A stretch of 40,774 nt of DNA from an uncultured Prevotellaceae bacterium (lineage in GTDB: Bacteria > Bacteroidota > Bacteroidia > Bacteroidales > Muribaculaceae). The position numbers and the translations under genes are program-made. The notes below the pieces were generated by a model. It made no database searches and had not been told where the DNA came from. It saw nothing but the letters and a program-made list of their open reading frames with translations. The stretch lies in assembly GCA_900318345.1 (NCBI GenBank), contig ONKD01000044.1, forward strand, positions 1 to 40,774. The letters are read 5' to 3'. Numbering within the stretch: the stretch's first letter is position 1; every line of letters begins with the position of its first letter. Positions 7,887 through 9,779 of the stretch are shown here, one piece after another.

Positions 7887-9242
7887 TTATTTTGGTACAC
7901 TCTTAAGGGTCTGTGCGATATCTTCATCCGAAATCTGGTAGTTCATCAGGTCGCCATTCAGGTATTGCTCATAAGCGCTCATGTCAATCAGGCCATGCCC
8001 CGAGAGGTTGAACAAGATGACCTTTTGCTCTCCGGTCTGTTTGCACTTCTCGGCCTCACGGATGACAGCGGCAATGGCATGGCCCGATTCGGGGGCGGGG
8101 ATGATGCCCTCGGTGCGGGCAAACAGCATCGCGGCATCGAAGGATTCCAGCTGCGGAATATCCTCACCACGCATCAATCCGTCCTTCAACAACTGCGAGA
8201 TGATCATGCCGGCCCCGTGATAGCGCAGGCCGCCCGCGTGGATGTTGGCAGGCTTGAAACTATGGCCCAGCGTGAACATCGGCAGCAGGGGGGTGTAACC
8301 GGCCTCGTCACCGAAGTCATAGCGGAATTCGCCCCTTGTCAATTTGGGACAACTCTCGGGCTCGGCAGCAATGAACTCGGTCGTCCTGCCGTCCTTCAGG
8401 TTGTGTCGCATGAACGGGAAGGCGATGCCGCCGAAGTTTGACCCGCCGCCAAAGCAGGCAATCACCATATCAGGATACTCCCCGGCCATGGCCATCTGCT
8501 TCTCGGCCTCCAGGCCAATGATGGTTTGATGCAGGCCCACGTGGTTAAGCACCGATCCCAGGGTATACTTGCAGTTGGGCGTCGTCATCGCCAGTTCCAC
8601 AGCCTCTGAAATTGCTGTTCCCAGCGAACCGGGGTGCTGCGGGTCACGGGTGATGATGTCCTTGCCGGCACGGGTGGACATCGAGGGCGAGCCCGTCACC
8701 GCCGCGCCGAAGGTGCGCATGATGGACGAGCGGTAAGGCTTCTGCTGCATCGAGATTTTCACCTGATAGACTGCCGATTCCAACCCGAAGACTGAGGCGG
8801 CATAGGCTAGGGCGGCGCCCCATTGCCCGGCACCGGTCTCGGTGGTGACGTTGGTGGTGCCTTCTTGCTTGGCATAGTAGCACTGGGCCAGGGCGGAATT
8901 GACTTTGTGTGAGCCCAGCGGGTTGACCGACTCATTCTTGAAATAGATGTGAGCAGGCGTCTGCAAGGCCTCTTCGAGAGCATAGGCGCGAACGAGGGGC
9001 GTCGAACGATAAGCCTTGTATTTGTCCATGACCTCGTCGGGAATAGGGATGAAGTCGTGCTCGGTGTCCAGTTCCTGAACACAACACTCCCGAGGGAAGA
9101 TGTGGGCCAAATCGTCTACACCTAGGGGTTGCTTGGTAGCGGGATGGATGGGCGGCATGGGTTTGTTGGGCATGTCGGCCTGGATATTATACCATGCTGT
9201 AGGCAACTCGTTCTCTTGCAGAATAAATCTCTTTTGTTTCAT
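7887..9242 (-). CDS. trpB2: TrpB2-type tryptophan synthase beta chain
   Basis: The 451-residue PLP enzyme is longer than classical TrpB (about 400) and matches the TrpB2 (TIGR01415-like) branch: the extended N-terminus with LPTAWYNIQAD, ESVNPLGSHKVNSALAQCYY with the PLP lysine at K113, TETGAGQWGAALAYAAS, and the glycine loop CFGGGSNFGGIAFPF. It joins indole and serine (or phosphoserine) to make tryptophan. No trpA or other trp genes are near, so it may salvage free indole, for example indole released by other gut bacteria. It is monocistronic behind a leader (9274-9463) that looks like a Trp attenuator. Confidence 0.92.
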   Translation of the reverse strand: MKQKRFILQENELPTAWYNIQADMPNKPMPPIHPATKQPLGVDDLAHIFPRECCVQELDTEHDFIPIPDEVMDKYKAYRSTPLVRAYALEEALQTPAHIYFKNESVNPLGSHKVNSALAQCYYAKQEGTTNVTTETGAGQWGAALAYAASVFGLESAVYQVKISMQQKPYRSSIMRTFGAAVTGSPSMSTRAGKDIITRDPQHPGSLGTAISEAVELAMTTPNCKYTLGSVLNHVGLHQTIIGLEAEKQMAMAGEYPDMVIACFGGGSNFGGIAFPFMRHNLKDGRTTEFIAAEPESCPKLTRGEFRYDFGDEAGYTPLLPMFTLGHSFKPANIHAGGLRYHGAGMIISQLLKDGLMRGEDIPQLESFDAAMLFARTEGIIPAPESGHAIAAVIREAEKCKQTGEQKVILFNLSGHGLIDMSAYEQYLNGDLMNYQISDEDIAQTLKSVPK

Positions 9243-9273: not shown

Positions 9274-9305
9274 AAAAGGCCTGTCGCGAGAACGACAGAC
9301 CTTTT
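9274..9305 (-). terminator. Attenuator terminator in the trpB2 leader
   Basis: On the minus-strand RNA a 13-bp stem (AAAAGGUCUGUCG with CGACAGGCCUUUU) closes a 6-base loop and ends in UUUU, 31 bases before the trpB2 ATG. One pair is G-U on this strand but would be a C-A mismatch on the other, so the hairpin belongs to the trpB2 transcript. Confidence 0.75.
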
Positions 9306-9332
9306 ATTCTATTTTGCAATCTTAATGATTTC

Positions 9333-9340
9333 AAATGGTC
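9333..9340 (-). promoter_or_regulatory. Candidate antiterminator segment
   Basis: GACCATTT on the minus strand, 7 bases after the leader stop codon, can pair with AAAAGGTC (9298-9305), the 5' arm of the terminator, in 7 of 8 positions. A ribosome finishing the leader would cover it; one stalled at the Trp codons would leave it free. Confidence 0.5.
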
Positions 9341-9347
9341 AAGCGAC

Positions 9348-9404
9348 TCACGACTTTTTCAATCTTGAGTTGCGCCACCACCAAAATGCTGAAATCATTG
9401 CCAT
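9348..9404 (-). CDS. Trp leader peptide (18 residues, three consecutive Trp codons)
   Basis: The minus-strand reading frame MAMISAFWWWRNSRLKKS ends with TGA at 9348-9350. Three TGG codons in a row (9375-9383) are very unlikely by chance in such a short frame placed between a consensus promoter and an intrinsic terminator. It starts 28 bases downstream of the -7 element. A second Met at residue 3 could also start. The product is presumably not a functional protein: its translation would sense charged tRNA-Trp and control whether RNA polymerase reads on into trpB2. Confidence 0.75.
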   Translation of the reverse strand: MAMISAFWWWRNSRLKKS

Positions 9405-9431
9405 TATTATCTCATATTTATGTTATCGATG

Positions 9432-9463
9432 CAAATATATAACCACTTTTTGATTCGGGCCAA
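9432..9463 (-). promoter_or_regulatory. trpB2 promoter
   Basis: On the minus strand TTG (9461-9463), 21 bases, then TATATTTG (9432-9439). Transcription would start about 20 bases before the leader peptide ATG. Confidence 0.7.
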
Positions 9464-9599: not shown

Positions 9600-9779
9600 T
9601 TATTTAGCGGGTTCCCATTTGCAACGCACGGGCGATACAATGGCACCCTCTTTCTTCAACGCGGTAAAGGCTTTGTCAACGACCTTGCGGTCGAGGCCGG
9701 TCAGTTCGGCTACTTTTCCAGCATTGAGGGGTTCGCCAGCTTTACGCATGGCTTCCAGAATTTGCTCTTTCTCGTTCAT
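9600..9779 (-). CDS. Small winged-helix DNA-binding-like protein (59 residues)
   Basis: The frame starts at ATG 9779 (MNEKEQILEAMRKAGEPLNA) and ends at 9600. The sequence reads as a compact winged helix: helix 1 EQILEAMRKAG, then AGKVAELTGLDRKVVDKAFTALKKEG as the helix-turn-helix, and the wing AIVSPVRCKWEP. I recognise this as a conserved short Bacteroidales protein often annotated as MarR-like or HTH; no target is known to me. It follows pepD by 23 bases and shares its terminator, so the two are probably co-transcribed. Confidence 0.8.
   Translation of the reverse strand: MNEKEQILEAMRKAGEPLNAGKVAELTGLDRKVVDKAFTALKKEGAIVSPVRCKWEPAK

Follow-up and report, generated by a model that had tools for sequence, protein, structure and literature searches.

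The window analysed here, a stretch of 40,774 nucleotides of contig ONKD01000044.1 from an uncultured Prevotellaceae bacterium, contains a gene for a TrpB-like enzyme, trpB2, which stands alone and is preceded by a short reading frame with three consecutive Trp codons. The question raised by this locus is how the expression of a standalone trpB2 might be coupled to tryptophan, and which RNA pairings would bring such a coupling about. In an earlier note, the region was read as a case of ribosome-mediated attenuation. The comparison with related genomes supports this reading for the standalone trpB2, with the Trp run, the terminator and the alternative pairings being kept in nearly all of the genus genomes that share the window's type of TrpB2. 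Very probably, the leader controls trpB2 as a ribosome-mediated transcription attenuator that responds to Trp. Control codons, an alternative antiterminator and an intrinsic terminator are all present before the gene, and equilibrium folding revealed no switch.

The trpB2 Gene and its Leader Region

The features of the window that are given with coordinates here are located on the minus strand. The trpB2 gene (7887..9242, start at 9242) was assigned with NCBIfam and codes for a TrpB-like PLP enzyme of 451 aa. The product scored 685.9 bits against NF009057 (cut-off 366) and 589 bits against TIGR01415 (cut-off 518.85); against canonical TrpB, TIGR00263, it reached 149 bits, under the cut-off of 392. 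In the window sequence, a Bacteroidota promoter is followed by an 18-codon leader frame, a protector hairpin, a terminator and then trpB2.

For the sigma-ABfr consensus of Bacteroidetes, PMC7366714 quotes TAnnTTTG at -7 and TTTG at about -33. From the sequence and this consensus, a -33 element TTG was assigned at 9461..9463, and the -7 element TATATTTG at 9432..9439 is based on the sequence and on the recurrence of TAnnTTTG in the leaders. This motif was identified 110-20 nt 5' of the first Trp codon in 24/24 genus leaders and in 53 of 66 leaders overall, compared to 6% of shuffled stretches. The consensus promoter described earlier is present; it matches the Bacteroidota TAnnTTTG type better than a sigma-70 consensus. 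A scan for promoters and terminators with simple consensus patterns was uninformative, giving sigma-70-like sites and a terminator hairpin on the plus strand only. Between a dipeptidase gene and the trpB2 leader, a frame of 59 codons (9600-9779) resembles a small winged-helix protein by eye; the 52 codons submitted gave no NCBIfam match.

The leader frame MAMISAFWWWRNSRLKKS (9348..9404) consists of 18 codons, terminated by TGA at 9350-9348, and codes for MAMISAF-WWW-RNSRLKKS*. Codons 8-10, TGGTGGTGG at 9375..9383, are the three Trp control codons, so that the 18-residue frame with three consecutive Trp codons was described correctly (9404-9348). When the 300 nt upstream of the window's gene were shuffled by dinucleotides, a frame with at least three Trp in seven codons was obtained in 5/2000 cases and one with at least two in 132/2000. 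Over 162 trpB2 upstreams, frames with at least three Trp were found 54 times in sense, never in antisense and in 0/810 shuffles, where 54/162 is not a frequency because the set includes loci picked for a visible leader; with at least two Trp, the numbers were 71 in sense, 5 in antisense and 37 in 810 shuffles.

The window leader has an MFE of -52.2 kcal/mol, compared to -30.8 (sd 3.4) for 200 shuffles (z = -6.3). A structure of this strength could also belong to a leader working without ribosome stalling, either a metabolite-binding riboswitch or a protein-bound leader (Trp, indole, TRAP-like, T-box). However, comparison of the window to Rfam at gathering score identified one tRNA only and no riboswitch or T-box. 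Conservation centres on a translated run of Trp codons, after which come the stop-codon segment and the terminator. This explanation is extremely improbable.

Terminator and Protector Hairpin

The intrinsic terminator, AAAAGGUCUGUCG-UUCUCG-CGACAGGCCUUUU (9274..9305), was identified by genus covariation and MFE. In the genus alignment, 98.1% of its cells are paired and four pairs have changes on both sides; its covariation score was attained by 0/500 shuffles. The strand-specific G-U pair reported earlier in the stem was recovered as U-G in 16/24 rows, with U-A in the other 8/24. The U-tract is short, with 4 U in the window and 3-6 in the genus, which counts against the attenuator reading.

The protector (1:2) hairpin (9324..9399) was revealed by MFE and by the genus alignment. 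It contains the 10-bp complementary pair which had been noticed to span the Trp codons, AATGATTTCA (9399-9390) with TGAAATCATT (9333-9324), and an inner helix GGTGGCG../GAGTCGCTTGACC. Paired cells in the genus alignment amount to 98.9% for the inner and 82.1% for the outer helix, and this paired-cell share was attained by 5/500 shuffles; three pairs changed on both sides, a number also attained by 204/500 shuffles. The protector is the hairpin drawn by the Rfam family RF01692.

Conservation within the Genus

TrpB2 was searched in 101 genomes of the genus. The near group consists of the 29 genomes, that of the window included, which contain the window's type of TrpB2. The other 28 proteins are 91-97% identical to that of the window, two of them being partial matches; more distant TrpB2 were found in 39 genomes at roughly 60-77% and in five at 52-54%. 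A Trp run precedes the window-type trpB2 in 28/29 genomes, namely in 26/27 upstreams on the same contig and at two contig ends. The latter are G020 and G238, in which the leader with its Trp run lies at the end of one contig and trpB2 starts another, probably as a result of assembly breaks; the hairpin that follows the leader in G020 is unlike the usual one. In one further relative, L012 (G017:C101), trpB2 itself is interrupted, with a stop codon and a change of frame.

The exception is L043 (G237:C61), in which the Trp codons and the antiterminator segment are lost, and promoter and terminator are kept. Unless its sequence results from an assembly error, this leader is a natural variant for which constitutive termination is predicted. 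The earlier note had named relatives without Trp codons or terminator as evidence against attenuation; the Trp run is kept in 28/29 near-group genomes, and G237 is the one case in which the terminator stands without Trp codons.

Alignment A1 consists of 25 rows of genus leaders matching TGGTGGTGG or TGGTGGTGC, so that its Trp columns are conserved by the selection of the rows. Outside A1 are L043, without a Trp run, and L004, which has a Trp run and was missed by the start-site pattern. A covariance model, R1, derived from the 25 leaders matched 30/101 genus genomes under strict filters and 0 of the other 71. These 30 comprise the 29 near-group genomes and G185, where the leader precedes trpB1. 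Twenty-five of the 29 supplied rows of the model, so that their match follows from its construction; the exceptions are G009, G020, G238 and G237, the last being truncated. The window's own genome gave a single sense match. The comparison of related trpB2 upstreams, proposed earlier as a check, revealed a kept Trp run, a covarying terminator and a layout which recurs beyond the genus. Covariation had been expected for the antiterminator as well as for the terminator, and within the genus it was found for the terminator, whereas the antiterminator pairs have no two-sided change there. In genus members with trpB1, a Trp-rich frame was also identified before trpB1 in 6/6 regions (L266-L271, L270 being at a contig end), and in other genomes of the order before 4/14 trpB1 genes (L281-L284).

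The Proposed Antiterminator

The main helix of the antiterminator appears to be formed by the leader stop-codon segment GUCGUGAG and by the terminator loop together with the 3' arm, CUCGCGAC, a pairing which is new. Its 5' strand GTCGTGAG (9347..9354) contains the leader stop codon, and its 3' strand CTCGCGAC (9283..9290) comprises the terminator loop and the start of the 3' arm; both were located by own-versus-swapped tests and by pairing in the genus. From pairing in the genus, an inner helix was assigned between GACC (9337..9340) and GGTC (9301-9298). An apical hairpin ATTTGAAATC/GATTGCAAAAT (9311..9336) was obtained from the MFE of the stalled state and is mutually exclusive with the outer helix of the protector. 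It was left out of the column-by-column pair counts, with alignment gaps being badly placed there; a compensated version is readable by eye in L006.

In the earlier note, a segment GACCATTT was described as able to pair with the terminator 5' arm, in an arrangement like that of enteric trp operons. The GACC:GGUC part of this pairing is firm, with 99.0% of the cells of this second helix paired in the genus, but its extension fails: over 24 rows, the next position pairs in 0/24 and the following one in 24/24, and the last two fail in 15/24 and 8/24. The assignment to the attenuation class holds, and the GACC segment is one part of an antiterminator whose main helix involves the stop-codon segment with the terminator loop and 3' arm. 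The stop-segment helix is likewise paired in 99.0% of cells in the genus; no two-sided change occurs, so there is no covariation. Within the genus, antiterminator pairs never changed on both sides, and 485/500 shuffles equalled the observed values. Because these pairs hardly vary in the genus, pair counts are no test, and an own-versus-swapped test across lineages was used.

In this test, 30 nt around the leader stop were paired with the locus's own terminator hairpin and with the terminators of other loci. Both for this and for the comparison of helix lengths, the 24 genus rows were reduced to three, giving 45 loci. For -15..+15 around the stop, own pairing amounted to -16.66 kcal/mol and swapped pairing to -11.85 kcal/mol (0/2000 permutations). 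The signal was also present in overlapping segments from -35 to +25 around the stop, and was not significant for -75..-45 (1979/2000), -50..-20 (1363/2000) and +5..+35 (346/2000). Outside the genus, 0/5000 permutations reached the own pairing both with 42 loci and with 35 thinned loci; here, the best duplexes include the terminator loop in 37/42 cases, and reversal of the own terminators reduced the pairing to -11.14. The longest helix was at least 8 bp in 39/45 own pairs compared to 193/450 swapped ones, and was centred at most 15 nt from the stop in 34/45 compared to 198/450. In the sequences compared, the stop segment and the terminator have thus coevolved across lineages. Counting against this, the terminator of the same locus ranks first among all partners in just 6/45 loci, with a median rank of 4. 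In L124, L219 and L225, the helix is found some 20-25 nt 5' of the stop, a poorer fit to the stop-segment model.

The data can be set against a simpler, enteric-type attenuator, in which GACC:GGUC is the whole antiterminator and the stop-codon helix a by-product of conservation. GACC:GGUC is nearly always paired and, as in E. coli trp, a stalled ribosome would free it. However, it offers four base pairs only, its extension fails, and the own-versus-swapped signal peaks at the stop codon and is not significant for +5..+35, where a GACC-like segment would be expected. In addition, a GUCGUGAG-type motif adjoins the stop also in leaders whose frame does not include it (L162, L165, L187, L190, L281, L283, L316); being kept beside the stop though untranslated, it argues for a role in the RNA. 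The enteric-type version is therefore considered rather unlikely, and the stop-codon segment is retained as part of the proposed antiterminator.

Folding and Proposed Mechanism

In equilibrium folding with the ribosome as a 5' boundary, the terminator was favoured in every state of the window (0.96-0.99) and in all 24 genus leaders; of 41 other leaders, just 7 fell below 0.5 when the ribosome was placed at the last Trp codon. A terminator that wins in all states would be in line with a constitutive terminator or an RNA-processing site that does not sense Trp, in which case the small peptide would be coincidental or have another function, and G237, with a terminator and no Trp codons, could be read in the same way. 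This is very unlikely, however, since Trp runs are a recurring feature upstream of trpB2, trpB1 and trpE in many families, and frames with at least three Trp in seven codons were absent from all 810 shuffled upstreams. For an attenuator, the dominance of the terminator at equilibrium implies that the switch must be kinetic, with the choice made during transcription, or that the energies mislead.

When nascent window RNA was folded with half of the terminator made and a ribosome stalled at the last of the Trp codons, the full antiterminator was the best fold; it did not form when the ribosome had moved on to the stop. More upstream pairing was obtained in the stalled than in the stop state for 24/24 genus and 40/42 other leaders, a comparison which is partly built in, since the stop state has less upstream RNA.

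From these parts, we infer the following sequence of events. The ribosome would translate the 18-codon leader close behind the RNA polymerase. With ample charged tRNA-Trp, it would get to the stop and cover GUCGUGAG, so that the antiterminator is blocked and the terminator can form. With scarce charged tRNA-Trp, it would stall on UGG-UGG-UGG and open the protector hairpin; the freed stretch from GUCGUGAG to GACC could then pair with the emerging terminator loop, 3' arm and GGUC, resulting in read-through into trpB2. In the absence of a ribosome, the protector hairpin would hide the stop segment, with termination as the default.

Distribution beyond the Genus

A Trp-rich leader with a terminator was identified before trpB2 in 20/53 regions of the order, belonging to 17 families; the other 33/53 are without such a leader. 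These regions represent one per genome, omitting those already in the set and the partial TrpB2 hits G124, G146 and G182. Among 80 named trpB2 loci, not all of them from Bacteroidota and two without upstream sequence, 17 have leader and terminator, and 9/12 loci titled Prevotella have no leader. By judgement, none of 42 regions of the family or of divergent genus members (L060-L101) has a leader, nine of which were flagged by a looser frame search. The trait is patchy, being widespread in Bacteroidales and missing from many of its members.

The rule of leader plus terminator, which by itself has a background of a few per fifty, passes mechanically in 2/42 (L090, L095) and 3/14 (L021, L023, L030) of the regions judged leaderless. 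These five were rejected by judgement: the frames start far upstream, resemble pieces or ends of coding genes and in most cases have no ATG start, and the hairpins are weak or unrelated. The count was made over 163 upstreams, 15 of them picked because a leader was already visible. From the 68 with leader and terminator, L198 (frame far from the gene) and L141 (poor terminator) were left out; L004 fails the 4-T rule of the terminator search.

Relation to Known Leaders

The Bacteroid-trp RNA (Rfam RF01692) is known from Bacteroidetes through computational work (Weinberg et al. 2010, PMC2864571, Table 1). According to PMC6414381, it precedes the trp operon of Flavobacterium psychrophilum, and for the same organism PMC9723704 reports indications that amino-acid operons are attenuated by means of leader peptides. 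The earlier statement that a characterised case in Bacteroidales was not known has to be revised in part, in that this kind of leader is known in silico as RF01692, and trpB2 as its target and the variant found here are new. No earlier case of a trpB2 leader in Bacteroidota was found in the open literature, leaving aside the supplement of PMC2864571. Since the kind is already known, the novelty lies in target and variant only.

With RF01692, the window shares the Trp-run leader peptide, the protector hairpin, a GUCGUGAG-type stop segment and a terminator of the GGUCUGUCG..CGACAGGCC type. The full model (1-131) was aligned to the window with several non-standard pairs, and the hairpin enclosing the Trp codons is present. 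The score of 37.0 bits is below the gathering cut-off of 49, and the own genome (G000) was not matched in the order-wide RF01692 search. Of 20 other genus leaders, six scored 38-43 bits and 14 gave no match at E 0.5; 20 leaders of trpB2 genes in other genera likewise gave none. On the basis of sequence, the window element is regarded as a divergent relative of Bacteroid-trp, under the curated membership score.

RF01692 itself matched 11/149 genomes of the order and 17/198 of the phylum. The first gene 3' of 28 such loci looked like trpB1 in 8 cases, like trpE in 19 and like neither in one, and never like trpB2, as judged by eye on the N-terminus, with 10/28 checked by Pfam. RF01692 thus precedes trpB1 or trpE in 27/28 sampled loci, whereas the window element precedes trpB2 in a genome in which no de novo pathway was found. 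In addition, the RF01692 model stops in the terminator 5' arm and is without the pairing of stop and loop, in contrast to the window. In 25/28 RF01692 loci, the best helix that the stop region can form reaches the terminator loop, typically as GUCGUGA:UCACGAC; in L035, L037 and L039, it does not. R1, built on leaders of the window's genus only, matched 11/11 RF01692 loci of the order in sense with 31.6-68.4 bits, of which the weaker matches are not decisive alone, as antisense terminator matches reach up to 47.5 bits.

The E. coli trp attenuator (Trp_leader, RF00513) consists of a leader peptide with tandem Trp codons and of protector, antiterminator and terminator hairpins. The tandem Trp codons and the three kinds of hairpin are also found in the window, which gave no Rfam match to RF00513. 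In contrast to E. coli trp, the stop codon of the window lies inside the antiterminator strand that reaches the terminator loop, and the target is a lone trpB2.

For actinobacteria, PMC1262725 describes classical trp attenuators with double or triple UGG and a conserved triple gGCC-rGCy-GGCC, the latter unlike the window. Here, also an attenuator is predicted before trpB2A of Corynebacterium diphtheriae, which is a precedent for a second trpB under attenuation. However, that organism is not a member of the Bacteroidota, its trpB2 heads a trpB2A operon and it also contains trpB1EDGC, whereas the trpB2 of the window is standalone.

Origin and Physiological Role

In a TrpB2 tree (quick method, LG+G4, with 34/116 inner branches open and used for placement only), the window-type TrpB2 groups with L212 from Prevotella sp. 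with a support of 98, and L212 has the same kind of leader. Both are nested in a mostly Prevotella set including four other-genus members of the family, L286-L289; the other TrpB2 of the window's genus are placed apart, mostly with Muribaculaceae records. This placement suggests a joint acquisition of trpB2 and its leader.

No match for TrpB1, trpA, trpE or trpD was found in the own genome, which is 90.56% complete, and the other 28 near-group genomes gave no trpA, trpD, full-length trpE or TrpB1 match and some short partial trpE-like matches. Single absences are weak, since the genomes are drafts. A trpA above cut-off, a full-length trpE and a trpD were each identified in the same 5/101 genus genomes, none of them from the near group. 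The own genome contains a tryptophanase, TnaA (G000:C56:23241-24593, L323), with 908 bits against NF053783 (cut-off 750); TIGR02617 tryptophanase matches were obtained in 27/29 near-group genomes, all under the model cut-off and some being fragments.

From other organisms, the salvage of indole by a TrpB is known (PMC11085991, citing Thermococcus TrpB1 and TrpB2). The gut bacterium studied here appears to be incapable of de novo Trp synthesis, with trpB2 as the one gene left for making Trp. Since a de novo Trp pathway was not found and tryptophanase is present, TrpB2 is probably an indole-salvage enzyme which, with no TrpA found in the genome, would make Trp from scavenged indole and serine. 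Gating of trpB2 by Trp would avoid a futile cycle with tryptophanase.

A wider proposal is put forward tentatively and is held to be possible, not yet probable. Bacteroidota Trp attenuators may share an antiterminator formed by the stop segment on the terminator loop, with the terminating ribosome as the lid; the cassette may have moved from biosynthetic trp genes onto trpB2, travelled with trpB2 from a Prevotella-like source, and may now gate indole salvage against tryptophanase where there is no de novo pathway. If the attenuator reading is right, Trp-sensing attenuation would govern the scavenging of indole, an abundant gut signal, and not biosynthesis, in apparent tryptophanase carriers. 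The comparison points to a group of trpB2 attenuators which escapes the public RNA model, and provides a little-studied RNA family with a concrete candidate for its antiterminator.
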